DNA of 64,000 nt, taken from assembly GCF_000422765.1 (NCBI RefSeq), contig NZ_AUGR01000001.1:124001-188000 (forward strand), written 5' to 3'. Both the position numbers and the translations under genes were made by a program. Positions 30,213-43,655 of this stretch are shown here, in pieces. Within the stretch, counting starts at the first letter, position 1; each line of letters begins with the position of its first letter. The notes under the pieces are model-generated. The model did no database searches. It saw only the letters and a program-made list of their open reading frames with translations, and had not been told where the DNA came from. The DNA comes from Neptunomonas japonica DSM 18939. GTDB lineage: Bacteria > Pseudomonadota > Gammaproteobacteria > Pseudomonadales > Balneatricaceae.

Positions 30213-30929
30213 TTAAGCTATTTGACGATCCACTGCCGCTGCCACCATGCGAGTCAGACTGCTCAAATCAAAGATGGGTAGGCCAAATTCTTTCTGTAAT
30301 TTCGGTGCAAAGTGCGAAAGGTCGGTGCACTCAAGAACGATTGCCCCTACTTCTGGGTTTTCGTTCAACATGTTCTGAACCACGGAATTTAATTCCTCCT
30401 CAAAAAGATCCATATCTAGGTCATCTGTATCGCCACGAAGGATGACTTCTGCAAACTGTTTCTGGTGCTGCATACCTGCAACTACAATAGGCTCTGCAAC
30501 AATACCGACACCTTTTAGGTGATCTTCGCTCAGTGCATCACTGTTGGCAACGACGACCCCTACTTTTTGATCCTGCTTTAATAAGCGAGACACCAATGGC
30601 ACTTGAATGAGGCTAGACATAAATACGGGTACATTAACCGCATCGGCGATCTCTTTCTGATGTAGGGCTAGAAAACCGCAGCTGCCGGTGATTGCTTTTA
30701 CGCCTTCACGTTCTAGTTCCTGAGCGGCTTCTATAAATGGTTTTAACAGTTCAGGGTCTCGTTCGCGGATAAGACGGTCAATAGTGGCACCTTTGACTGT
30801 CTTGTAAAGGATGGGAAAGTCAAAGCTGGCGGGGTGTTTAATGTGCCCAGCCGGTTTAGGGAAGTAAGACTCTAGGGAAATAACACCTATGGTGAGTCCG
30901 CATACATTGATACCACCTTTGATTATCAT
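30213..30929 (-). CDS. Aspartate/glutamate racemase-family protein
   Basis: The 238-residue protein has the two-cysteine layout of the Asp/Glu/hydantoin racemase superfamily: ITGSCGFLAL in the first half and VLECTDLSHF in the second. These enzymes invert the alpha carbon by a two-base mechanism, while some relatives are isomerases or decarboxylases. The substrate is unknown. The start ATG has AGGAT seven bases upstream. It lies 12 nt after the FAD oxidoreductase gene in an operon with ridA, which suggests supply of a stereoisomer for oxidation. Confidence 0.82.
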   Translation of the reverse strand: MIIKGGINVCGLTIGVISLESYFPKPAGHIKHPASFDFPILYKTVKGATIDRLIRERDPELLKPFIEAAQELEREGVKAITGSCGFLALHQKEIADAVNVPVFMSSLIQVPLVSRLLKQDQKVGVVVANSDALSEDHLKGVGIVAEPIVVAGMQHQKQFAEVILRGDTDDLDMDLFEEELNSVVQNMLNENPEVGAIVLECTDLSHFAPKLQKEFGLPIFDLSSLTRMVAAAVDRQIA

Positions 30930-30941
30930 TTAAATATCCTG

Positions 30942-32183
30942 TCAGTTAAAACGTGCGGCGGAGAATGGTTTTAGGTCCACTGCTGGTTCATGGCCCTGTA
31001 TACTTTGTGTAATCAGTTTGCCGGTGATCGCAGCAAATGTTAGTCCTAAGTGGCCATGACCAAACCCTACTTTTATCCGCGGGTGCTGCTCTAGTGCCCC
31101 GATAACTGGCAGAGAGTCTGGTGTTGATGGACGACTACCAACCCAGGTCGACTTAATTGAAGGGTCACTGCCTAGCATTACTTTGGCATGCTTCAACATT
31201 TCATCAGCACGTTGTGGGTTTAGTGGTGCATCAGCGAATGCAAATTCTGCCGTTCCTGCCAAGCGTATACCGTCTTCCATTGGCGTAAGGAAGACGGCTT
31301 TATCTAGCCAGCCTACTGGGCGACTAAGAGATTTTTTGCCGATATCTAGCGTTAGGTGATAGCCACGTTCGCTGACGAGTGGGATTTTCACTCCAAATTT
31401 TGTAAGAATCGCTTTGGAGGAGAAACCTGTACAGATCACAACTTGATCATATTTTACGATGCTATCACTTAGCTTCACTGTAACTTCATTATCGTTAGGT
31501 AATACCGCTTGTACTTCATCTTGTAAGATTGTTCCACCGTTGTTAATGAAGTAAAGGGCATAACGTCGGCTTAATTCAACGGGGCTTATGGTGAAACGAG
31601 TATCGGGATAAAAAACTCCACCGGCATGAAAATTTGCTAAATCTGGTTCTAAGTCGTGTACCTGGTTTGCATTCAGAAATTCGAGATTTACACCTTGCTC
31701 TCTACGTTCTCGTAGATCGCCATTCTGAGCGTTTAAAACCCCTTCCTCTGTTGCAAATAAACCTAAGCAGCCTGCGGATTTAATCAAGTCCTGAGCATCT
31801 GTGAGGTCCAATAATTCTTGATTAGCGAGTTGCGTATGTGCTTGCAACGATGTCAGTGCTTCTTTTCCTTGCACGTACTTTGTAGGGAAGCAGGCTTTGA
31901 AAAATCCCCAGCCGTAAGGCATCAATGAAGGTAAATAGCTCCCTTGCATAGACAGCGGGCTGGTTTTGTCTAGCAGCATTCCAGGCATTTTTTTCATCAT
32001 GGCAAACTTGGCAAACGGCAATCGGGCATAATCTGCAAATAAGCCAGCATTACCGAAAGATGCACCCATGCCAGGTGCTTCCTTATCGATCAATGTCACC
32101 TTATAACCCGCTTTTTGCAAGCACAGTGCGGTGGACAGACCGACGATGCCAGCCCCCAAGATTCCAATATGTATATTTTGCAT
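30942..32183 (-). CDS. FAD-dependent D-amino acid dehydrogenase-like oxidoreductase
   Basis: The 413-residue protein has an N-terminal Rossmann FAD-binding motif GAGIVGLSTALCLQKAG ending in ID, then ASFGNAGLFADYARLPFAKF as in DadA-like enzymes. The C-terminal closing motif is KVGFGHGHLGLTFAAITGKL. The family oxidises D-amino acids or cyclic imino acids to imines or 2-oxo acids. The partner ridA gene, whose product hydrolyses reactive imines, fits this role. The exact substrate is undetermined, and assignment to dadA itself would be unsafe. Confidence 0.85.
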   Translation of the reverse strand: MQNIHIGILGAGIVGLSTALCLQKAGYKVTLIDKEAPGMGASFGNAGLFADYARLPFAKFAMMKKMPGMLLDKTSPLSMQGSYLPSLMPYGWGFFKACFPTKYVQGKEALTSLQAHTQLANQELLDLTDAQDLIKSAGCLGLFATEEGVLNAQNGDLRERREQGVNLEFLNANQVHDLEPDLANFHAGGVFYPDTRFTISPVELSRRYALYFINNGGTILQDEVQAVLPNDNEVTVKLSDSIVKYDQVVICTGFSSKAILTKFGVKIPLVSERGYHLTLDIGKKSLSRPVGWLDKAVFLTPMEDGIRLAGTAEFAFADAPLNPQRADEMLKHAKVMLGSDPSIKSTWVGSRPSTPDSLPVIGALEQHPRIKVGFGHGHLGLTFAAITGKLITQSIQGHEPAVDLKPFSAARFN

Positions 32184-32219
32184 GTTTACTTCGTGATGAA
32201 ACCATCACGCCTCACAATT

Positions 32220-32567
32220 TTAAGCTTTGGCTGCGATTACCTGAATTTCTACTAGCAGCTCCGGTCGTGCTAAACGGGATTCCACACAGGCCCTGACGGG
32301 TGTGTTTTTACTGTCTACCCATGCATCCCACACCGCGTTCATTTGGGCGAATTGGCTCATGTCAGAAACCCAGATATTTGCGCTGATTAGACGGCTCTTA
32401 TCGCTCCCCGCATCTTTAAGTAGTTCATCTATTTGTGCCAGAACTTGCTGGGTCTGCCCTGTTATATTCTCGGATGGCTTTTTTGCGACTTGGCCTGCAG
32501 TCCACACTAGGCCTGCAAAGCTTACTAGTTGGCTCATACGTTGATTTGAATGTTGGCGTTGGATCAT
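32220..32567 (-). CDS. RidA-family (Rid) protein
   Basis: The 115-residue protein has the YjgF/YER057c/UK114 fold signature: AGLVWTAGQV near the N-terminus, and PVRACVESRLARPELLVEIQV near the C-terminus, which keeps the Arg needed for imine/enamine hydrolysis. RidA proteins form trimers that deaminate reactive enamine/imine intermediates. It is the first gene of the ridA-oxidoreductase-racemase set, 36 nt before the oxidoreductase. An alternative start at Met11 (MSQLVSFAGL) is possible. Confidence 0.88.
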   Translation of the reverse strand: MIQRQHSNQRMSQLVSFAGLVWTAGQVAKKPSENITGQTQQVLAQIDELLKDAGSDKSRLISANIWVSDMSQFAQMNAVWDAWVDSKNTPVRACVESRLARPELLVEIQVIAAKA

Positions 32568-33418
32568 GTCCTACTCACTTATTATTGGTTTTTTGTTGGC
32601 TAGCGGTACTAGTAAGTTGTTCGTAGCGCTCGCCTTTTTTGATGATGAGATTAGTTGCTAAAATCATTAAGTAAACGGCTCACAGGCGCTCGATTATGAG
32701 AACAAATAACTCAAATATGGTCGTCGAAATAAATAAGAGAAGGATTGTAAGTGCGAGGTACTAGATACTGATTCTTATAATCGCCACCGATTACAAAGGG
32801 TATGTACATCGAGATCTTCTTTTATTGTTATATTCGGCCTACTCGCTAAATCAACCCAGGGAGTAGTCTTTAAGAAGTTATTATTTACACTAAAAAACAT
32901 AATAACAAATCGTAAATATTTAACATTTCATCAGATTTTTTTATATTAATGAATATTTATGTAGGGCAGTGTGCGTTCACATCCACTATTGAAATTCAGT
33001 ATTTACCAAGGGAGTAAGTTGATTGAGTTTGTTAGATCGACGTCAAATCTAACGGAGGTAACCGCGTTTCGTTTTCACAAAAGCATGTTTCCTTCACTTT
33101 CTATCGAAGTGGTCTTTTCTATTTTATTAATAAAAATATCCCCCTAGTATTTTTTAGGAACCCCGCAGTTACATAAACACTCAACTACATAGCTCTCTTA
33201 TTAAAATACTGTCGTCGAGAACAGCTATGGTGTGATAAATAACATAAGAAAAACTTATATAATCAAATATTTTTTAGAATTGTATCTATATTAAGTTTGT
33301 TTACACTGAATGAATCAGTGTCCTGTGATATTGGCAATTGAGTTGTTACAGCAACTTTACGTTCTTCGTCACAGTCATTGCTGAAACCTATAAAAACAAG
33401 AAACATTCGGGTAGCAAA
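32568..33418. other. 851-nt AT-rich divergent intergenic region between ridA and tctB
   Basis: No convincing gene was found; all frames are short and broken by stops. It must hold the promoters of the ridA operon (minus) and tctBAC (plus). Visible structure includes GTTAGAT-N9-ATCTAAC (33031-33053, followed at once by GGAGG) and ACACTGA-N5-TCAGTGT (33303-33321). A TATAAT lies at 33257-33262 without a good -35. Confidence 0.6.
33303..33321. promoter_or_regulatory. 19-bp dyad upstream of tctB, possible operator
   Basis: ACACTGA and TCAGTGT flank a 5-nt centre, about 98 nt before the tctB start. The size suits a dimeric regulator such as the nearby LysR or a GntR-type protein. The assignment is inference. 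Confidence 0.35.
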
Positions 33419-33883
33419 ATGGATAGAAGAAAGATAGACGTCGTATTATCGACATTTTTGATTATTGTTTCTTTGATTATCTTGACCAACAACAACCTAG
33501 TTGAAGGTGGTGCTGAAAGTGATCTAGGATCCATGTTTTTACCTCGTGTCGTAGCGGGGTTGATGATCATTTTTTCTGCGACTATCGCTATCCAGTCTCT
33601 AATGAAGCTTTCAAAAGGTACCAAGATTGAAGGTTTGGAGCTGATCAGCACTGACGGCTTCTCCGGTATCCTTATCTATATAGGGATCTTTATTGTGTAC
33701 TGGCTTGCTGTGCCTTACGTAGGCTTTCTGGTTGCCACCCCCTTTATTATGATCGCTGTTGCTATGCTCCTTGGAGGTCGCGACTGGGTTCCTATTATCG
33801 CGATGTCTGTTATCACCCCTGTACTGATCGATTATGGCTCTAAAGAGTTTCTGCGAGTCTACTTGCCAACGTGGTCTTTTTAA
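33419..33883 (+). CDS. tctB: Tripartite tricarboxylate transporter small membrane subunit (TctB family)
   Basis: The 154-residue protein has four membrane segments, starts MDRRKIDVVLS and shows the TctB pattern (GSMFLPRVVAGLMII). It is the small membrane component of a solute-binding-protein-dependent secondary transporter. The frame extends upstream to 33338, but the ATG at 33419 starts at the normal family position. The gene order is B-A-C rather than the more common C-B-A. Confidence 0.88.
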   Translation: MDRRKIDVVLSTFLIIVSLIILTNNNLVEGGAESDLGSMFLPRVVAGLMIIFSATIAIQSLMKLSKGTKIEGLELISTDGFSGILIYIGIFIVYWLAVPYVGFLVATPFIMIAVAMLLGGRDWVPIIAMSVITPVLIDYGSKEFLRVYLPTWSF

Positions 33884-33897
33884 GGGGAGGAAATCAG

Positions 33898-35418
33898 ATG
33901 TTTGATAATATTATTAGTGGTTTCTCTTCTATTCTGGCGATAGGTCCTATTTTGGGCATTATTGCTGGCGTAATCATCGGTATTATTTTTGGCGCTATTC
34001 CTGGCATATCTGCCATCATGGCGATCGCTATTATTTTGCCTATGACCTTTTATGTCGATCCAATCATAGGTATCACTATGTTATTGGCTGTATATAAAGC
34101 CGGTATTTATGGAGGATCGATTTCAGCCATCTTGATTAATACACCTGGGGCCGCAGCCTCATTTCTTACTGCTCAAGATGGTAATGCACTGACGAAAGCC
34201 GGTAAGGCGGGCAAGGCACTCGATATGTCTTTATTTGCCTCGGTCACAGGTGAGATGCTGGCAACATTAGTACTGATTTTAGTTGCTGCTCCGATCTCTT
34301 TGATCTCATTGCAGGCAGGCCCTATAGAAAAAGTATTCCTGCTGCTGTTTGCTTTTACCGTTATAGGCTCTATGGCAGGAGAGTCGCTCCCGCGTGGCTT
34401 ACTATCGTGCTGTCTGGGTATGCTGTTTGCTATGGTCGGTATGTCTACTATTACAGGGGCCGCACGCTTTACTTTTGGTTATACCGAATTGATGGGTGGT
34501 TTTACCTTTACGCCTATGCTGATCGGCATATTGGTTATGCCTGAGGTGTTTAATGTTATTAAACGGCGTCTGGTTCCACATCATGAGATGACGATTACTC
34601 ACTCTCCGAATCCTGCTGATAATCGCATTAGTTTTAAAGAATTTCGAAATGTGTTTAGCACTATTTTAAAATCCAGTGGTATTGGTACCTTTGTTGGCGC
34701 CCTGCCAGGTTTGGGTTCTAGTACAGCAGCCTTTATTGCCTATGGTGAAGCAAAACGTACCGCTAAAAAACCTGAAGAGTACGGCAAGGGGTCAGTCGAA
34801 GGTATTGCTGCTGCAGAGTCTGCTAATAACGCAGTGTGTGGCTCTAGCATGATTCCAATGCTGACATTGAGTATACCTGGTGATGATGTAGCGGCATTGC
34901 TTATGGGGGCTTTTTTGATTCATGGCCTGACACCTGGCCCTATGATCTTTTTCGAGCACACTGAAATTATCTACGCGATTTTCGCCGGTTTCTTGATTAC
35001 CGATCTATTCCTTTTGGTGATCGCTCGATCTGGATTCAAATTTTTCGTGAAAATGGCGTCGTTGCGTCGCTATTATATTTTCCCTTGTGTGACTGTGTTT
35101 GCTTTCACTGGTGCCTTTACTGCTGGACAAAACATGGATGACATTCTTGTTCTCATTGCCTTTACTGTGATGGGCTACGGCATGAGGTTAGTGGGCTTAA
35201 ATCCGGCTGTATTTATCATCGGCTTTATTCTGACACCGTTCCTAGAACAAAACTTAGATCAGGCAATGTCGATCGTTGGCACTGACTATTATCTGTTCTT
35301 AGCATCACCGTTCTCATGGGTGTTTATAGCACTGTCTGTTTTCTTTGTTTTCTCCAGTATGCGAGTAAAGCGAAAAACTGCGAAAGCTACTGCTTCGGCA
35401 GAAAATAAAACCACCTGA
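33898..35418 (+). CDS. tctA: Tripartite tricarboxylate transporter large membrane subunit (TctA family)
   Basis: The 506-residue permease has about twelve membrane helices and the family-defining GAIPGISAIMAIAIILP and ILINTPGAAASFLTAQDG segments, repeated in weaker form in the second half (GALPGLGSSTAAFIAYG). It works with the periplasmic TctC protein and an ion gradient to import carboxylates. The ATG at 33898 has an excellent GGGGAGGA site eight bases upstream; the frame open before it overlaps tctB and is not needed. Confidence 0.93.
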   Translation: MFDNIISGFSSILAIGPILGIIAGVIIGIIFGAIPGISAIMAIAIILPMTFYVDPIIGITMLLAVYKAGIYGGSISAILINTPGAAASFLTAQDGNALTKAGKAGKALDMSLFASVTGEMLATLVLILVAAPISLISLQAGPIEKVFLLLFAFTVIGSMAGESLPRGLLSCCLGMLFAMVGMSTITGAARFTFGYTELMGGFTFTPMLIGILVMPEVFNVIKRRLVPHHEMTITHSPNPADNRISFKEFRNVFSTILKSSGIGTFVGALPGLGSSTAAFIAYGEAKRTAKKPEEYGKGSVEGIAAAESANNAVCGSSMIPMLTLSIPGDDVAALLMGAFLIHGLTPGPMIFFEHTEIIYAIFAGFLITDLFLLVIARSGFKFFVKMASLRRYYIFPCVTVFAFTGAFTAGQNMDDILVLIAFTVMGYGMRLVGLNPAVFIIGFILTPFLEQNLDQAMSIVGTDYYLFLASPFSWVFIALSVFFVFSSMRVKRKTAKATASAENKTT

Positions 35419-35446
35419 ATATGAAAACCAAACCTCCTTAGCTGGG

Positions 35447-35466
35447 TAGTAACTTTTATGTTACTA
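35447..35466 (+). other. Hairpin between tctA and tctC
   Basis: TAGTAAC (35447-35453) pairs with GTTACTA (35460-35466) around a TTTTAT loop. The 120-nt gap also has an 11-bp direct repeat ATATGAAAACC at 35419 and 35491. Such intercistronic structures often help set a higher level of binding protein than permease; whether it does so here is not known. Confidence 0.4.
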
Positions 35467-35538
35467 GTCTTTGCTTGAGGCCGAAAATCCATATGAAAAC
35501 CGTTAAATATAAATATAAATAAATCGAAGGAAGTACGT

Positions 35539-36486
35539 ATGAAAAGCTCTAAAAAAATACTAGCAACTCTTACCGCAGCGCTGGCTGTAACATTGGCTTC
35601 TGGTGCAGCATTGGCTGAATATCCTGAGAAACCAATCAATGTTATCGTTCCTTGGGGAGCGGGTGGTGACTCTGATTTAACGACGCGTATTTGGGCTGAC
35701 GCCGTAGAAAAAGAGCTAGGTGTTCCTGTGGTTGTTATTAATAAGACAGGCGGTGGCGGTATTGTTGGAACATCGTTTGTTGCTCGTGCAAAAAAAGATG
35801 GCTATACCTTGATTAATGCGGGTCTTAGTAACATGTTAATAACCCCTAACTTCAGCAAAACGCCTTATAACTTTGATAGCTTTACACCCGTGGTTAAAAT
35901 GACTTCTGTACCGCTAGCGGTAGTCGTTGCAAAAGACAGCCCTTACAAAACATTTGAAGATTTTGTTGCTGGCGCTAAGAGTAAGAGAGTAACTCAGGGA
36001 TCTTGGGGTGCGACCTCTTCAGGTACGATTCAAGCCAACATCATTGCAGAACAGATGGGCTATAAAGTTAAGTATGTCCATGCAAAAGGCGCTGCAGACT
36101 CTATGGTTTCAGTTGTCGGTGGTCACATTGACTCTGCTGTTTCATTCCCTCCTGCATTTGGCCCTCATGTAAAGGCTGATCGTGCACGTGCACTGGTTAT
36201 GAACCAGAAAATGGATGCATTTCCAGGTGTGCCGACATTTGCAGATTATGGCGTAAAAGGCAGCTTCGAAGGCTGGTCGGGTGTGTTTGCACCAAAAGGT
36301 GTTCCTCAGGATGTGGTTGATAAACTGAATGCTGCAACTGCCAAAGCAATGGAAGATCCAAAAGTGCTGGCTGCGTACCAGAACATTGGTGCAATAGTTG
36401 ATTATCGTCATGGATCTGAGTGGGTAAGTGACATGAAAGAAACTTACGGCATCATGAAAGAGGCGGCTGCGAAAGTTAAGAAATAA
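35539..36486 (+). CDS. tctC: Tripartite tricarboxylate transporter substrate-binding protein (TctC/Bug family)
   Basis: This is a periplasmic binding protein of 315 residues. The signal peptide ends ALAEYPEKP; the mature protein has the Bug-family IVPWGAGGDSDLTTR near the start and GGGGIVGTSFVA after it. Family members bind citrate, other carboxylates, or amino-acid derivatives; the ligand here is unknown. The Shine-Dalgarno GAAGGAAG is strong. It is the third gene of tctBAC and ends in a hairpin terminator. Confidence 0.92.
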   Translation: MKSSKKILATLTAALAVTLASGAALAEYPEKPINVIVPWGAGGDSDLTTRIWADAVEKELGVPVVVINKTGGGGIVGTSFVARAKKDGYTLINAGLSNMLITPNFSKTPYNFDSFTPVVKMTSVPLAVVVAKDSPYKTFEDFVAGAKSKRVTQGSWGATSSGTIQANIIAEQMGYKVKYVHAKGAADSMVSVVGGHIDSAVSFPPAFGPHVKADRARALVMNQKMDAFPGVPTFADYGVKGSFEGWSGVFAPKGVPQDVVDKLNAATAKAMEDPKVLAAYQNIGAIVDYRHGSEWVSDMKETYGIMKEAAAKVKK

Positions 36487-36503
36487 TAGCCGTAACTGAT
36501 ATT

Positions 36504-36550
36504 CAACGGCACTCGGTATTTTCTGGTTATCGAGCTGTCGTTGAGTTTTT
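36504..36550 (+). terminator. Probable terminator of tctBAC
   Basis: CAACGGC (36504-36510) pairs with GTCGTTG (36537-36543, one G-U), extended by an inner CTCG/CGAG stem (36512-36515 / 36531-36534), and is followed by AGTTTTT. Confidence 0.6.
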
Positions 36551-36796
36551 CACTGCCAATTCTCCCTACAGTTTCTATTCAATACCCAAATCAATATTTA
36601 TCTCTTGCCTACGCTTTGCCTCTCTTTGTTATTTCATGACGGTTTTCTGGTTTCTTGTGCGCAACTTACCAGCTTAAAACTGGATTACATGAACAAGCAT
36701 CGAATGCTGATGTACGTTATATTTCTACTTTAACTATAATTAAACACCTATTTTTAGGGTTGTTCATCAGTATATCTAATATTTAAAGGTGAAATA
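36551..36796. other. Intergenic region upstream of the LysR gene
   Basis: This is the rest of the 310-nt gap between tctC and the LysR gene. It is AT-rich and has no convincing ORF. It presumably holds the promoter of the LysR gene; AT-rich -10-like sequences occur (for example near 36770-36785) but none is clear. Confidence 0.5.
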
Positions 36797-37729
36797 ATGA
36801 ACCTCAAGCAGATGGAAGCCTTTCGGGCGGTGATGTTAAGTGGTTCGGTTTCACAGGCCGCTAAACAATTATTTCGAACTCAACCAGCAGTGAGCATGAT
36901 GATTACCTCGCTGGAAAACGATATTGGTTTTCAATTGTTTGAACGGCATAAAAAACGCCTGTATCCCACTCCTGAGGCTCACTATTTATATAAAGAAGTA
37001 GAAGCTATCTTCTCTCGTATACAGGATGTAAGCCAGACTGTTCAGGATATACAGAACAAGCAGTATGGTTTTCTACGCATCGGTTGTATGCCTGGGCCAT
37101 CTAATTTCTTCGTGCCAGATATTTTGGCAGATTTTTTGGAAGACCATCCCAAGGTTCAGGCCTCATTACAGACTCGAACGTCTGATGCTGTCGTTGAGTG
37201 GGTCGCTTCCAATCAATACGACTTGGGTCTGGCTGAAATATCCACGCATCAGTCCAAGCTAGGTAGAAATAGGCTGTTCGAGTTGCCTTGTGTTTGTGCG
37301 CTACCGGCTGATCACCCGTTGGCAGAGCAGGAGGTGATTACGCCCGAGATGCTTGACGATGAGCCAATGATAACCCTGCATCCAGATCATATGATATTCC
37401 ATGATTTGATGCAGCTGTTTGAAGCGGGTGGGCATCGTATGAATGTGCGTTTGCAAACCCGCTTCTTTATTCCGGCGCTTAAGTTTGTTGAGCGGGGGCT
37501 TGGTGTATCTATTGTTGACCCTATATCAGCAAGTAGTTACACCACGTACGCACAAGCTGACAAAGTTGTCTTTCGTCGCTTTCAGCCTGACGTGCATTTA
37601 CGTATAGGTTTGATGTTCCCCTCGGGTAACCCGTCATCGATGATTGCCATGGAGTTTGCTGACCTACTGTGCAAGCAGATTGAAAATGTTCTTGATAACC
37701 CTGAGCAGTTCCTTGGTTGGGGTGAGTAA
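36797..37729 (+). CDS. LysR-family transcriptional regulator
   Basis: The 310-residue protein has an N-terminal winged helix-turn-helix (residues 1-60; MNLKQMEAFRAVMLSGSVSQ then AAKQLFRTQPAVS) and a C-terminal periplasmic-binding-like effector domain. It lies directly after tctBAC in the same direction but with its own upstream region. The natural guess is control of tctBAC, and perhaps of the ridA operon across the divergent region. The inducer is unknown. Confidence 0.9.
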   Translation: MNLKQMEAFRAVMLSGSVSQAAKQLFRTQPAVSMMITSLENDIGFQLFERHKKRLYPTPEAHYLYKEVEAIFSRIQDVSQTVQDIQNKQYGFLRIGCMPGPSNFFVPDILADFLEDHPKVQASLQTRTSDAVVEWVASNQYDLGLAEISTHQSKLGRNRLFELPCVCALPADHPLAEQEVITPEMLDDEPMITLHPDHMIFHDLMQLFEAGGHRMNVRLQTRFFIPALKFVERGLGVSIVDPISASSYTTYAQADKVVFRRFQPDVHLRIGLMFPSGNPSSMIAMEFADLLCKQIENVLDNPEQFLGWGE

Positions 37730-37838: not shown

Positions 37839-39329
37839 TTATAACTTGCCAAGGTAGCTATCAAATCGCTGCTTAATTGATTCTGACGGTGCTGCGGTTA
37901 CTAAGCTTACAATGATAATTGATAGTGCCGCAAAGATAATTCCCGGAACTATTTCATAAACATCAAAGATGCCTCCACTGATCTGTTTCCAGATAACAAC
38001 CGTTAAGCCACCCACAATAACACCTGCCAATGCGCCAAAGCGATTCATACGCTTCCAGTACAAGCTTAGGATCAGCGTTGGACCAAAAGCAGCACCAAAA
38101 CCTGCCCATGCATAAGAAACCAACCCTAATACAGAGCTATCAGGATTCATTGCTAGCATCAGTGCTACAAGGGATAAGCCTATCACAGCAACTCTACCTA
38201 CCATGACAACTTGTTTTTGCGATGCGTCTTTACGGAACACCTGTTTGTAAAAGTCTTCAGCTAGTGCAGAAGAAGATACCAACAGTTGAGAATCTGCTGT
38301 ACTCATAATGGCTGCAAGAATCGCGGCTAAAAGAATACCAGCAACAACAGGGTGGAATATGGCATTGACTAGTAACATGAAGATTTTTTCGCCGTCGCCT
38401 AGGTTTCCGCCCAGCTGATTATCTACATAGATAATACCGGCAAGGCCCACTAGTATAGCGCCGACCATTGATAACCCAGACCACACAACAGCAATACGGC
38501 GAGCAGTAGAGATCTCTGCATTACTACGTACTGCAGCAAAACGTGCCAAAATATGAGGCTGGCCGAAGTAACCTAAGCCCCATGCAGCTAAAGAAATAAT
38601 AGCGATGGCTGTGAGTGGTTCACCTTTGCTATCGTTCCAGATAGTGAGCAATTCTGGGTTTTTAATTTCTAGAGCAGTAAAGAGGTTAGCAAAACCCCCT
38701 TCAGATTGAATAGCAATAATTGGTACAAGAATAAGCGCTGCAGCCATCAATAAGCCCTGCACTAAATCTGTCCAAGACACTGCTAAGAAACCACCAAATA
38801 AGGTATAAGACACAACACAAACGGTGCCTATGATGACTGCTAGGGTGTAATCCAGTCCAAAGACCGTTTCAAATAGCTTACCGCCAGCAACTAAGCCTGA
38901 ACTTGTATAGAACAAGAAGAATAATAAAATAAAGAAGGCAGAAATAACCTGTAATAGGTTTGATTTGTCCTCGAAACGGTTAGCAAAGAACTCAGGTAGT
39001 GTGAGAGCATCGTCTGCTTCAATACTATAAGTACGTAGACGCTTGGCTACTAATAACCAGTTTAACCAAGTCCCTATGAGTAAGCCTGCCCCTAGCCAAA
39101 TTGATTCTAAACCAGACGAAAATGCATAACCTGGAAGGCCTAAAAGTAACCAGCCACTCATATCTGAGGCGCCTGCCGATAATGCGGCTGGCCAAGGGCC
39201 TAGAGAGCGACCACCCAAAAAGTAATCTGAAGAGTTTGCTGTGCGTCGGTAAGCATACACACCAATGGCGAGCATGAGTCCTAGATAAATCGTAAAAGTA
39301 CCAATAATGGCACCGCTATTTGCGATCAT
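37839..39329 (-). CDS. putP: Sodium/proline symporter PutP
   Basis: This sodium:solute symporter of 496 residues has about 13 membrane helices. The PutP hallmarks are present: YFLGGRSLGPWPAALSAGASDMSGWLLLG near the N-terminus, the TM5-6 region, and GFGAAFGPTLILSLYWKRMN near the C-terminus. It imports L-proline with Na+. The start has GAGG nine bases upstream. Third in order after putA and the detached PutA domain on the same strand, so proline uptake and oxidation are grouped. Confidence 0.95.
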   Translation of the reverse strand: MIANSGAIIGTFTIYLGLMLAIGVYAYRRTANSSDYFLGGRSLGPWPAALSAGASDMSGWLLLGLPGYAFSSGLESIWLGAGLLIGTWLNWLLVAKRLRTYSIEADDALTLPEFFANRFEDKSNLLQVISAFFILLFFLFYTSSGLVAGGKLFETVFGLDYTLAVIIGTVCVVSYTLFGGFLAVSWTDLVQGLLMAAALILVPIIAIQSEGGFANLFTALEIKNPELLTIWNDSKGEPLTAIAIISLAAWGLGYFGQPHILARFAAVRSNAEISTARRIAVVWSGLSMVGAILVGLAGIIYVDNQLGGNLGDGEKIFMLLVNAIFHPVVAGILLAAILAAIMSTADSQLLVSSSALAEDFYKQVFRKDASQKQVVMVGRVAVIGLSLVALMLAMNPDSSVLGLVSYAWAGFGAAFGPTLILSLYWKRMNRFGALAGVIVGGLTVVIWKQISGGIFDVYEIVPGIIFAALSIIIVSLVTAAPSESIKQRFDSYLGKL

Positions 39330-39457: not shown

Positions 39458-40165
39458 TTACGAATCGCTCTTGCCACCAAGCTCCAATAACGTCGCATTA
39501 CCTCCAACCGCAGTGGTGTTCACTGAGAGAGTGCTTTCTGTAACAAAACGCCAAGGATAATCAAGGCTTGTTAGTGTCGCATAAGTGTTAAAATCTGTTT
39601 CCGCAATGAGTTGCGCTAGCATGCCGTCGCGTTGTGCTAGTTGTGTATTGAGTGCTATTACATCAGCATCGGGTCCACAAAAGGCATAGGCATGAAAGGC
39701 TTCATGGCTGGCTAGCTCTTCTATTGATGCGCTGCTGATTTGAACGACATCAGCTGGTACTCCAACGTTCAATAGTGCTGAATGTAAGCGGTGCATATAT
39801 TTATTGGATGACTGTAGAACCACTGCATTTCCGGTTGCTAGTGCGGTGAATAACTGTGCCGCTATTGCTGTTTCATACGCTAGAACAGTCTCACTATCTT
39901 GTGAGTTGGGGGCGCCTGAGCAAATACCGATAAGCCCGCGGCCACTCCAATGCAGGCTGTTCGCTTCGCCTGTAGGCCCTGGTAAATGGAGAGTGTCTGG
40001 CATGGTGTTAGTGACCCGTGCCAAGAGCCAGTTAACTAAGGGTTGGTTGAGTTCTTTAGCCGCGACACTAAGCAATTCAACTCGGGCTATAGCACCTAAC
40101 GTATTCCAAGCTTCCCAGGCAGATTCTGCAGTTTTTACAGTGCTCGCTAATGTTGGGGTAGTCAT
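39458..40165 (-). CDS. Stand-alone PutA C-terminal domain (ALDH-superfamily-like) protein
   Basis: The 235-residue protein resembles the extra C-terminal region of long PutA proteins. It has the GPTGEANSLHWSGRGLIG segment, an aldehyde dehydrogenase-like alpha/beta stretch (ALATGNAVVLQSS), and the closing motif STLSVNTTAVGGNATLLEL, like the conserved C-terminal motif of type B/C PutA. In those enzymes this domain covers the P5C dehydrogenase active site and supports substrate channelling. It has no catalytic Cys/Glu pair of its own. Here it is a separate gene with its own AGGAG site, 13 nt after the putA stop. It probably acts in trans with PutA; that is inference. Confidence 0.75.
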   Translation of the reverse strand: MTTPTLASTVKTAESAWEAWNTLGAIARVELLSVAAKELNQPLVNWLLARVTNTMPDTLHLPGPTGEANSLHWSGRGLIGICSGAPNSQDSETVLAYETAIAAQLFTALATGNAVVLQSSNKYMHRLHSALLNVGVPADVVQISSASIEELASHEAFHAYAFCGPDADVIALNTQLAQRDGMLAQLIAETDFNTYATLTSLDYPWRFVTESTLSVNTTAVGGNATLLELGGKSDS

Positions 40166-40178
40166 ATTAATCTCCTGC

Positions 40179-43100
40179 TCATGCTTGGCTATTTAGGGGG
40201 CTTTGAGTGTTTGGAACGTGAGTACTTTGAGGCTGAGTCTTTCGAACTTCACGCGTGAAACGTTTTAAATAGTGAGGCCCACCCGCTTTAGGGCCTGTTC
40301 CTGACAGCCCTTGTCCACCAAAGGGTTGCACACCTACCACTGCGCCGACCTGATCACGGTTGATATAAATGTTGCCTGCACGTACGCGATGCGTAATGTG
40401 GTTGGCGGTGGTTTCGTTACGTGTATGCACACCCAGGGTTAGACCAAAACCGCTAGCATTGATACTGTCAATGATGCTGTCAAGCTCAGAGGCTTTATAG
40501 CGAACCACGTGAAGAATCGGTCCGAACTGCTCTTCCGTTAACTGCTCGATTCCTGAGATCTCAAATGCACTTGGCGCAACAAAAGTACCTTTCTCAGAAT
40601 CAAATGGCAGCGGCGTTTGAGCAATCAGAGAGGCGTTTTTATTCATGTCTTCAATATGTTGTAAAAGCCCGGCTTGTGCCCTTTTATCGATGACAGGTCC
40701 AATATCTGTTTGATGATATTCAGGGTTTCCAACGATGCTTTCTTGCATGGCTCCACGTAGCATTGGAATAATGCGATCAGCAACATCTTGCTGGACAAAT
40801 AGCACGCGTAACGCTGAACAACGTTGCCCGGCAGATGCAAAAGCTGAGCGCACAACATCACGTACAACCTGTTCAGGTAAGCATGTTGAGTCGATTAGCA
40901 TGGCATTCTGGCCGCCAGTTTCGGCGATAAATGGAACGGGGTCTGCTTGGCGTTTGGCTAGTGAGCGGTTAATACGCTGGGCGGTCCCTGTTGAGCCAGT
41001 AAAGGCAACTCCAGCAACACGTTTATCAGAAGTTAACGGCTCACCGAGTGTCGCACCTTCACCGGTAAGTAGCTGAATAGCGCCTGCAGGGATACCAGCC
41101 TCAAGCATTAGTTGAACAGCGCGAAAGGCAATAAGGCTAGTTTGTTCTGCAGGCTTGGCGACAACCGTGTTACCGGCAGCCAAAGCTGCTGCTATTGGTC
41201 CTAGGAATATTGCTAGGGGGAAATTCCATGGTGATATACAGACGAAAACACCACGCCCTTGACGGCTTATTTCAAGAGTTGAGTGGTCAAAGTTCTGTAA
41301 TGTTTCTGTTTCACTCATTGCCAAGCGAGCTTGGACGGCGTAATAACGGCAAAAATCAACGGCTTCACGCACTTCGTCGATTCCATCTTGTAACGTTTTG
41401 CCCGCTTCACGATGACATAGTGCCATTAACTCACCGTAATTGGCTTCTAGTAAGTCGGCTAAGCGTTCTATAGCCTGGGCACGTTCCGTTACTGGCGTAT
41501 CGCGCCATGCAGGGTAGGCTTTTTCAGCATGTTCTAGAGCAAGGTCTACATGCGAAGCGCTGGCGAAATTAACCTGTCCAACGGTATGATGACGATCGTA
41601 TGGAGCAACAACGCTAAAGGGCGTGGTATTTGTAGATATCACTTCACCATTTATGATCGGACCTGCTTGCCAGGTAGTTGCCATAAATGGCTCAATCATC
41701 GCTTTAAAGTGGTTCCACTCTACATCGATCTCAATGTTGTAACCGTAAGAGTTCTTACGCTCATCACTAAACAGTTCTGCAGGAAGTGGAATATGAGGGT
41801 TGGCTAGTGATTTTCGTGCTGCTAATACATCCGCAGGATGATCCACTAGTTCACTAATAGGACAACGAGCATCCACCAAACGGTGAACAAAAGAGCTGTT
41901 AGCCCCATTTTCTAACAAGCGGCGTACTAAATAGGGCAGCAAGTCTTTGTGGTTGCCTACCGGTGCATAAATACGAACAGCGACATTGTTCGTTCTGATA
42001 ACCGTATTATAAAGAGCATCCCCCATGCCGTGTAGGCGCTGGAATTCGTACTCATCGTGCATAGCCATAGCTATTACTGAAGCAACGGTATGCGCATTGT
42101 GGCTAGCAAACTGAGGATAAATATGTCCTCGGACATTTTCGCTTAGCAAGAATCGCGCGCATGCTAAGTAAGCGGTATCCGTAGCTTCTTTACGTGTATA
42201 AACGGGATATCCGCTTAAGCCACGCTGTTGGCAATTTTTTATCTCGCTATCCCAGTAAGCACCTTTTACCAAGCGCAATGGAATACGATCTCCCTGGCTT
42301 TTGGCTAATGCTGCTAGCCAGGCCAAAACAGGTAATGCGCGTTTTGAATAGGCCTGTACTACTAGACCTAGCTCACCCCAACCACGGGTTTTTGGGTGCT
42401 GGTATAGCTGCTGGAATAGTTCTAAAGATAATTCTAAACGATCCGCTTCTTCAGCATCGATGGTAATGCCGACATTGAGAGATCTCGCGTGGCTGATGAG
42501 CTCAAGTACCTTATCGCTCATCTCTCCTAATACGCGTGCTTTTTGGCTCACTTCATATCGCGGGTGAAGAGCTGACAGCTTGATAGATATCGTCGGTTTA
42601 GGCGCGCTTCCTTCGTACTTATCTTTTCCGACAGCGCTAATGGCCTGTTTATAATCCTTGAAGTACTTATCAGCATCTTGTGAAGTTAGGGCTGCTTCAC
42701 CTAGCATGTCGAAAGAGTAAGTATAGCCTTTGTCGCGGTCGTTACGGCCACGCTTTAGTGCTTCTTTAATGGAGCGTCCCAGCACAAACTGATGGCCCAT
42801 TATTTTCATCGCCTGATTCATCACTTTACGGATGACAGGTTCAGACATTTTATTGACGAGGCGGTTAATGACGTTTGAAGGTTCGCCGTCTTCATCTTTA
42901 TCAAGGGATACTACTTTCCCAGTCAGCAGTAATCCCCATGTAGAGGCGTTTACAAATAAAGAGTCTGAGTTCTTTAAGTGTGCTTTCCAATCAGCTACCG
43001 ACAGCTTGTCACGTATTAACGCATCGGCTGTTTCTGCATCAGGAATACGCATGAGCGCTTCAGCAAGGCACATGAGAAGGATTCCTTCACGTGTGTCTAA

Positions 43101-43346
43101 GCTGTATTCCAGCAACAATGCATCAATCATATGAATGGCACCATCATCTGCGCGCACTTGCTCGATTAGCGTAGTCGCACCTTGAGTGATCTGTTGGCGT
43201 TCATTTGTGTTAGGTGTGGCTAATGGCAACAGCTCTTTTAACCAACTCGTTTCATCTACTGAGTAGAGTGGCGAAATGAGTTCCCAAATGTGTGGGAGTG
43301 GCTGATCTAAAAAATCAGGATTAAAGATGTCGGTGGCTTTGAACAT
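40179..43346 (-). CDS. putA: Bifunctional proline dehydrogenase / P5C dehydrogenase PutA, short form
   Basis: It oxidises proline to glutamate in two steps. The 1055-residue protein has an alpha-helical N-terminal part, an FAD-binding proline dehydrogenase barrel (about 180-480; PTISIKLSALHPRYE and RLVKGAYWDSEIK), and a P5C dehydrogenase domain (about 560-1030). The latter has FIAETGGQN (Glu about 807) and GQRCSALRV (nucleophilic Cys about 841). There is no N-terminal ribbon-helix-helix DNA-binding domain, so it should not repress its own operon. It also lacks the C-terminal domain, which is encoded next door. The ATG at 43346 has AGGGAG upstream and was preferred to the start at 43406. Confidence 0.95.
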   Translation of the reverse strand: MFKATDIFNPDFLDQPLPHIWELISPLYSVDETSWLKELLPLATPNTNERQQITQGATTLIEQVRADDGAIHMIDALLLEYSLDTREGILLMCLAEALMRIPDAETADALIRDKLSVADWKAHLKNSDSLFVNASTWGLLLTGKVVSLDKDEDGEPSNVINRLVNKMSEPVIRKVMNQAMKIMGHQFVLGRSIKEALKRGRNDRDKGYTYSFDMLGEAALTSQDADKYFKDYKQAISAVGKDKYEGSAPKPTISIKLSALHPRYEVSQKARVLGEMSDKVLELISHARSLNVGITIDAEEADRLELSLELFQQLYQHPKTRGWGELGLVVQAYSKRALPVLAWLAALAKSQGDRIPLRLVKGAYWDSEIKNCQQRGLSGYPVYTRKEATDTAYLACARFLLSENVRGHIYPQFASHNAHTVASVIAMAMHDEYEFQRLHGMGDALYNTVIRTNNVAVRIYAPVGNHKDLLPYLVRRLLENGANSSFVHRLVDARCPISELVDHPADVLAARKSLANPHIPLPAELFSDERKNSYGYNIEIDVEWNHFKAMIEPFMATTWQAGPIINGEVISTNTTPFSVVAPYDRHHTVGQVNFASASHVDLALEHAEKAYPAWRDTPVTERAQAIERLADLLEANYGELMALCHREAGKTLQDGIDEVREAVDFCRYYAVQARLAMSETETLQNFDHSTLEISRQGRGVFVCISPWNFPLAIFLGPIAAALAAGNTVVAKPAEQTSLIAFRAVQLMLEAGIPAGAIQLLTGEGATLGEPLTSDKRVAGVAFTGSTGTAQRINRSLAKRQADPVPFIAETGGQNAMLIDSTCLPEQVVRDVVRSAFASAGQRCSALRVLFVQQDVADRIIPMLRGAMQESIVGNPEYHQTDIGPVIDKRAQAGLLQHIEDMNKNASLIAQTPLPFDSEKGTFVAPSAFEISGIEQLTEEQFGPILHVVRYKASELDSIIDSINASGFGLTLGVHTRNETTANHITHRVRAGNIYINRDQVGAVVGVQPFGGQGLSGTGPKAGGPHYLKRFTREVRKTQPQSTHVPNTQSPLNSQA

Positions 43347-43655
43347 AGTTATGCTCCCTAAACATGTTGGACGGTCGATAGCTGCGCCATGGGTCACGAA
43401 TATCATGATGGTTCAACTGTATGGCCAACTGGTCGCTTTCGTCTTGCGAAAAACTTGGCTTGTTTTGCAAAAAGCTCTGTTTTACCTCCCTTTAAGGTCT
43501 TTTTTGGATGTTTTCTTTATAAACATGAAGGGTGATGAGGGGAAATTCCAGTTTTTAAGCGATCAATTGTCTGGAATTTGCTATGATCCGCTTTTGCGGC
43601 GTTATTTTGGATAGCGCTTCTTTTTAGTACAATTAATTAGATCGGATCGAGTTAT
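43347..43655. other. 309-nt divergent region between putA and purE
   Basis: It holds no convincing gene. On the putA side there is a 10-bp palindrome TTTTGCAAAA (43463-43472) with a related TTGCGAAAAA just beside it, possibly an operator. On the purE side is an extended -10 promoter. No PurR-type box was recognised. Confidence 0.5.
43579..43587 (+). promoter_or_regulatory. Probable extended -10 promoter of purEK
   Basis: TGCTATGAT combines the TGn extension with a -10 hexamer one base from TATAAT, 68 nt before purE. There is no good -35. A small CCGC-TTTT-GCGG hairpin lies at the predicted start site. Confidence 0.45.

Follow-up and report, generated by a model that had tools for sequence, protein, structure and literature searches.

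Proline utilization A (PutA) is a classic example of an enzyme that channels its substrate. A hairpin carrying the motif GPTGE is part of the PutA oligomerization domain, and a conserved C-terminal motif has been proposed to seal the cavity. In the literature that we examined, known PutA tunnels are closed either by a fused C-terminal domain (CTD) or, where a domain-swapped dimer forms, by the partner protomer. Here we describe a putA locus of Neptunomonas japonica DSM 18939, contained in a 64,000-nucleotide stretch of DNA (the window; contig NZ_AUGR01000001.1, positions 124,001 to 188,000), in which both closing motifs are encoded by a small gene directly downstream of putA. We consider it probable (about 0.75) that the product of this small gene is a non-catalytic accessory PutA subunit that closes the tunnel in trans.

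Long type-B PutAs are described as having 1100-1200 residues with a CTD of 100-200 residues, and in the sections of the same source drawn on here the CTD of Rhodobacter capsulatus PutA contributes to aldehyde dehydrogenase (ALDH) activity and channelling and is suggested to be part of the membrane-switching apparatus (PMC5293562). As far as the relevant passages go, the partner's oligomerization domain covers the tunnel in Bradyrhizobium japonicum PutA (PMC5786444), and in Sinorhizobium meliloti PutA the C-terminus caps part of the tunnel as a lid (PMC12398946). Together with the modelled place of the small protein (below), these roles suggest that the split PutA consists of two subunits, one of which closes the tunnel in trans. 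We found no account of a detached PutA CTD in the open-licence literature searched.

The split form resembles the fused long PutAs (types B and C, for example S. meliloti 5kf6 and R. capsulatus) in having an ALDH-like half with a GPTGE flap and a closing motif, and the place predicted for the small protein on the Δ1-pyrroline-5-carboxylate (P5C) dehydrogenase domain (P5CDH) matches that of the fused domain. However, the fused enzymes are one polypeptide whereas the split form is two, with a main chain of the short lineage. The split main chain belongs to the lineage of the short type-A PutAs (B. japonicum 3haz), and the fold and closing motif of the small protein are nearest to the P5CDH half and the C-terminus of such enzymes; type-A PutAs carry flap and lid on the main chain, whereas the split main chain has neither.

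Layout of the split putA locus

The first-pass annotation of the window had proposed that PutA stops after its P5CDH domain and that a separate 235-residue protein, with its own AGGAG and ATG, is encoded 13 nt downstream. Both statements were borne out, coordinates included. The features are as follows.

40179..43346, minus strand: putA, 1055 aa, proline dehydrogenase (PRODH) and P5CDH domains; short type-A-lineage core without the GPTGE flap motif and without the C-terminal motif (open frames, domain search, motif counts, core trees)
39458..40165, minus strand: small gene, detached PutA CTD, 235 aa; non-catalytic ALDH-like flap, Rossmann-type half and closing motif
40172..40176, minus strand: AGGAG, the small gene's ribosome-binding site, 6 nt 5′ of the ATG (read from the sequence)
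39965..39985, minus strand: LPGPTGE flap motif, small-protein residues 61-67 (conservation, and a turn between model strands 58-61 and 67-75)
39476..39559, minus strand: C-terminal closing motif, small-protein residues 203-230, YPWRFVTESTLSVNTTAVGGNATLLELG (conservation, motif counts)

The PutA of the window has complete PRODH and P5CDH domains (Pfam Aldedh at 573-1032), aligns to solved PutAs and ends soon after P5CDH with GPHYLKRFTRE followed by a divergent tail. An in-frame ATG upstream at 43406 offers an alternative start giving 1075 aa. The putA stop codon is TGA (40181-40179, minus strand) and the small gene starts with ATG at 40165; the intervening 13 nt put the two reading frames, which are different, out of step by one base.

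Among 57 related genomes, 18 (the source genome included) encode the small protein as a separate frame directly 3′ of putA: all 8 genomes of the genus, its own included, 10 of the 28 others of the family and 0 of the 21 genomes of other families in the order. The 13-nt gap does not represent a mended frame, since 17 other genomes have the two genes arranged alike; across the 18 pairs the gap ranges from -1 to 35 nt. A sequencing error, a pseudogene or a local oddity was ruled out by the conserved pairs and by purifying selection on the small gene (dN 0.065 and dS 0.35, window against the related locus L021). A frame difference between the two genes, seen in 18/18 pairs of the first set, turned out not to be a general rule, since three Marinomonas pairs and some Vibrionaceae pairs are in frame.

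By sequence, the small protein is a pseudo-ALDH half

By sequence, the best matches of the small protein among solved structures were 6bsn/3haz (E 6e-9), and the C-terminal region of S. meliloti PutA (residues 1083-1235) was matched with E 0.002. The alignment to PutAs of known structure, which the first-pass annotation had proposed as a check, thus upheld the homology of the small protein to the ALDH-like CTD of long PutAs, closing motif included. The protein ends in RFVTESTLSVNTTAVGGNATLLELGGKSDS, its closing motif is NTTAVGGNATLLELGG, and GPTGE is invariant in the small proteins of all 18 related genomes. Its Pfam Aldedh score of 20.8 bits fell short of the 23-bit cut-off, and the ALDH catalytic half is missing; neither the GQRC-type catalytic Cys motif nor the SPWN of the NAD site was found in any of 45 small proteins, whereas each was present in 45/45 partner PutAs. 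As judged from its sequence, the small protein is therefore a pseudo-ALDH half and not a P5C dehydrogenase.

Two closing motifs change place together

Motifs were counted in 45 split, 29 short and 73 fused PutAs, a set that omits duplicates (L061, L062, L064, L066, L067, L139), frameshifted or truncated loci (L020, L063, L086, L103, L115, L141, L223), the short loci L170-L200 and frames below 870 aa; L081 and L204 are one gene and both were counted, so that the 45 split rows represent 44 distinct genes. The results showed that short PutAs carry an exact GPTGE on the main chain in the P5CDH half (25/29; PSPTGE or SVTGE at the equivalent place in the other four) and the closing motif at their own C-terminal end (27/29, the exceptions being L122, at a contig end, and the divergent L060). 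Both motifs were present in all 73 fused long PutAs, where the single GPTGE per chain lies 138-167 residues before the C-terminal end and hence inside the CTD. In the split pairs, GPTGE and the closing motif were each found in 0/45 PutAs, but in 43/45 and 45/45 small proteins, respectively. No small gene was found 3′ of the short PutAs of the compared loci, whose flap and lid motifs stay on the main chain. Short PutAs have a median of 355 residues between TGE and the closing motif and small proteins one of 148, a difference that would fit excision of the catalytic half. The PutA of the split lineage has probably lost both motifs, although the trees described below are unrooted.

Distribution of the split pair

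The first-pass annotation had called for a survey of split and fused forms in Oceanospirillales. Split pairs do occur in related genomes, but they are unique neither to N. japonica nor to Oceanospirillales. The small gene was found in 73 of 81 sampled Vibrionaceae genomes, and the same 73 carry putA while the remaining 8 have neither, both counts being taken from the identical 81 genomes. The Vibrionaceae small genes are open frames of 211-304 aa, except one with an internal stop (G429), and putA lies directly upstream in 20/20 regions inspected, although it is broken in the G429 locus (L223). In this 2.6 Mb genome the broken putA and the internal stop in the small-gene match (G429:C2:973559-977307) seem to decay together. 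The annotated order in Salinivibrio is putA, "aldehyde dehydrogenase family protein", putP. Two genomes, G011 and G024, hold a split pair plus a long PutA.

In a scan of named genomes, the best 80 of at least 412 relatives comprised 11 separate genes, 64 single-frame PutAs of the fused or short kind (among them the incomplete L115 and L122), 2 frameshift look-alikes and 3 matches at contig ends without PutA in hand; the separate genes among these 80 belong to Neptunomonas, Nitrincola, Neptuniibacter, Marinomonas, Marinobacterium, Allopseudospirillum and Vibrio. L086 and L103 were rejected as split pairs, being long PutAs with a frameshift inside the P5CDH domain. In Nitrincola sp. A-D6 (L063:1862-4995), putA itself occupies two overlapping frames of 413 and 652 aa, probably through an assembly frameshift. 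A class-wide survey, which yields no rate, gave matches to the small-protein profile in 226 of 369 genomes; among the matches listed, a clean separate frame was seen in the source genome only, and frames of 432 and 497 aa in G186 and G266 were left unassigned. Since no listed match resembles the Vibrionaceae pair, Vibrionaceae were probably not drawn in that survey.

The main chain belongs to the short PutA lineage

The PutA core of the window is 60-66% identical to those of four short type-A PutAs (L039, L053, L057, L058) and 47.6-50.6% identical to those of the 16 fused long PutAs compared; two more short PutAs, L059 and L060, are as distant as the fused ones (48-49%). Trees were made by "quick" searches, are unrooted and carry only Shimodaira-Hasegawa-like approximate likelihood ratio test (SH-aLRT) support, and we chose the sister groups and the clades to be tested once the first tree had been inspected. 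The first core tree held 89 rows, of which 39 were split, 28 short and 22 fused (out of 66 thinned fused rows); in it, 38 of the 39 split PutAs formed one group (support 99) that lay within a grade of short PutAs. With L221, L059 and L060 set aside, the split PutAs and the four sister short PutAs lay on one side of a branch with support 100. Forcing split and fused PutAs into one clade in a 41-row core tree cost 275 log-likelihood units and was rejected by the approximately unbiased (AU) test (p 2.7e-91). These data indicate that the main chain of the window PutA is of the short type-A lineage and is not half of a long PutA.

The PutA of the outlier pair L221 (G443, Vibrionaceae) has a long branch and did not join the split group, but a single split group including it was not rejected (p 0.12). 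The small protein of this pair has diverged strongly, scoring 40 bits against the profile; the two features point to a possible second origin or simply to fast evolution.

The first-pass annotation had read the locus as a long PutA cut in two. Such gene fission, in which a stop or frameshift would have divided an ancestral long type-B PutA, fits the homology of the small protein to the long-PutA CTD and its position directly downstream, and a domain tree places the small proteins with the fused CTDs, opposite all catalytic domains, with support 99. It is at odds with the nesting of the split PutAs among short PutAs and with the rejection of the split-plus-fused clade; moreover, the breaks of the frameshifted long PutAs L086 and L103 do not lie at the split-pair boundary. 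Under the model used, fission is refuted for the main chain, and we regard it as very improbable for the locus.

The split PutA fits neither existing type. Like type B, the genome encodes a homologous ALDH-like CTD with a closing motif; unlike type B, this domain lies on a separate frame from PRODH-P5CDH in the window and in all 45 split rows, and common descent of the core with the fused long PutAs is rejected. The 1055-aa chain agrees with type A in size (about 1000-1060 aa), in its PRODH and P5CDH domains and in its descent with short PutAs, but the C-terminal closing motif and P5CDH flap that a type-A chain carries itself are each found in 0/45 split PutAs. The split PutA is neither type B, being unfused and of another core lineage, nor plain type A, having both motifs off the main chain.

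Structure models

The model of the small protein alone had a predicted local distance difference test score (pLDDT) of 90 and a predicted template modelling score (pTM) of 0.86. Its best solved matches were type-A B. japonicum PutA structures (Z 22.6-23.4, 208-211 residues, root-mean-square deviation (rmsd) 2.4 Å), with the match extending to residue 988-989 of that chain; generic ALDHs reached Z of about 20-21. For a Marinomonas pair linked by reading the in-frame stop as Gln (741 aa), the AlphaFold2 model had a pTM of 0.89. Its VIA-align superposition on S. meliloti PutA spanned both parts, with 643-654 residues aligned at an rmsd of 2.1-3.0 Å, while the listed PutAs without a CTD matched it over residues 1 to about 505 only. 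The model thus predicts for the small protein the position that the fused domain holds in S. meliloti PutA.

Proposed function of the small protein

The displacement of the two motifs, the missing catalytic half, the strict co-occurrence in the sampled Vibrionaceae and the nesting of the main chain support the reading of the small protein as an accessory subunit. In the proposed mechanism, the small protein would bind PutA non-covalently, at a ratio of about 1:1, and would dock at the site held by the fused CTD in long PutAs, as modelled. Its GPTGE β-flap and C-terminal motif would seal the tunnel that carries P5C/glutamate semialdehyde (GSA) from PRODH to the P5CDH site. In short PutAs both elements lie on the main chain, the flap being that of the partner protomer and the lid the chain's own C-terminus; in the split lineage the neighbouring gene would provide both closing elements in trans, PutA having neither; PutA alone would then be expected to leak or to have weak P5CDH activity.

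Several points weigh against this reading. The putative complex is a prediction from sequence and from the linked-chain model. That docking model depends on an artificial covalent link in a Marinomonas pair, not on the window's own proteins; the alignment used for it included 28 fused PutAs and AlphaFold2 probably saw S. meliloti PutA, so that the placement shows compatibility and not independent proof. The Foldseek fit of the linked model to S. meliloti PutA was looser (TM score 0.77-0.79 by query length, rmsd 6.6-7.3 Å, 724-752 columns including the linker), and S. meliloti PutA was not among the 50 matches listed for the small protein alone, which does not exclude a match. The closing motif was of low confidence in both models, the last blocks of the small-protein model scoring 75, 52 and 51. 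In addition, dN/dS of the small gene was about 4-5 times that of putA (window against L021 and L022; putA dN 0.015 and dS 0.38 against L021), which is looser than expected of a tightly fitted subunit.

Alternatively, the small protein might chiefly tune membrane binding or redox switching of PutA instead of sealing the tunnel. A separate gene would permit titration, and the CTD has been suggested to lie within the switching apparatus in the cited part of the R. capsulatus work (PMC5293562). However, the strict co-occurrence and the location of both tunnel-closing motifs off the main chain argue for an obligatory structural part, and we consider a chiefly regulatory role unlikely, although sealing and regulation are compatible with each other.

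The small protein could also be taken for an enzyme. A transcriptome paper on Vibrio campbellii names, in the passage concerned, an operon putBCP that was down-regulated in a mutant, with PutC as P5C dehydrogenase (PMC3858670). Gene order, as opposed to a sequence match, leads us to infer that this PutC is the small gene: the order PutB-PutC-PutP in that passage corresponds to putA-small gene-putP in the open frames of another V. campbellii strain, LJC015 (L202:2831-8312), where 11 nt separate putA from the small gene. Whereas PutC is called P5C dehydrogenase in the paper, the LJC015 gene encodes, by its sequence, a non-catalytic domain. The annotation and operon name in that passage are what speaks for a small protein that is itself the P5C dehydrogenase (PMC3858670); the lack of an ALDH catalytic half, the absence of the Cys motif and of SPWN from all 45 small proteins, and the preceding LJC015 gene, a 1043-aa PutA with both domains, speak against it, and this interpretation is hardly credible.

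Origin of the small gene

A short PutA may have gained the second gene from either of two sources. In the scenario that we favour, tentatively and at somewhat less than even odds, the PutA C-terminal seal would have evolved twice, the second time in a lineage of marine Gammaproteobacteria (Vibrionaceae, Neptunomonas, Marinomonas, Marinobacterium and relatives): a short PutA would have duplicated the 3′ part of its own P5CDH, and the copy would have dropped the catalytic half, taken over flap and lid and stayed separate, making PutA an obligate two-subunit enzyme closed in trans. In the other, a short PutA would have recruited a copy of a long-PutA CTD, after which the flap and lid motifs of the short chain itself were lost. 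The two are alike in function and differ in the source of the small gene alone.

A profile of the small protein with the closing motif removed gave median scores of 114 bits for the P5CDH half of short PutAs (n=29), 85 bits for fused CTDs (n=73), 62 bits for the split PutAs' own P5CDH (n=45) and 49 bits for fused P5CDH (n=73). The closing motifs of the small proteins were nearest to those of short PutAs in 45/45 cases, with a mean identity of 74% to sister short PutAs against 48-51% to fused PutAs, and flap identity was 65% against 54% in the 36 of 45 small proteins with a countable flap. Profile scores and closing motifs favour local duplication at the sequence level, although the likeness of the motif to short PutAs could also persist because it must fit a short-type core.

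Recruitment agrees with the grouping of small proteins and fused CTDs in the domain tree, as well as with G011 and G024, which hold both forms of PutA. That grouping, however, joins fast, non-catalytic domains on long branches and may be long-branch attraction. Domain trees were built without L221 and L222, and the one used for the AU test also without seven long rows and thinned to 58; on it, a local-origin grouping of small proteins, split PutAs' P5CDH halves and the four sister short PutAs was not rejected (AU p 0.137). Together with the identities of motif and flap, this makes recruitment a rather doubtful source.

A fused long PutA at locus L051 (5664-7242) is followed by another copy of its CTD, partial but almost identical, in a frame of 117-148 aa, with a ferredoxin-like gene (named by eye) between the two copies. 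This appears to be a recent partial duplication of the putA 3′ end and indicates that such duplications do occur.

Neighbouring genes

The third gene of the array putA-small gene-putP lies 128 nt 3′ of the small gene, a position equivalent to that of the annotated Salinivibrio putP.

37839..39329, minus strand: putP, sodium/proline symporter-like, 496 aa (named by eye and position)

Beside the put genes, positions 30213-37729 of the window hold, as named by eye, an Asp/Glu racemase-like gene, a DadA-like FAD oxidoreductase gene, a tripartite tricarboxylate transporter-like set and a LysR-like regulator gene.

Significance

The widespread two-piece PutA offers a seal that is removable, titratable and mutable with the catalytic chain untouched. 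Because the seal is separable from the catalytic chain, the need for a covalent link in channelling becomes directly testable. The domain as such is not new, and Vibrionaceae annotations include the gene, though under the name of an enzyme; our results suggest that these annotations (P5C dehydrogenase in V. campbellii, aldehyde dehydrogenase family protein in Salinivibrio) mislead. They also suggest that proline catabolism in Vibrionaceae may depend on a subunit hidden under enzyme names.

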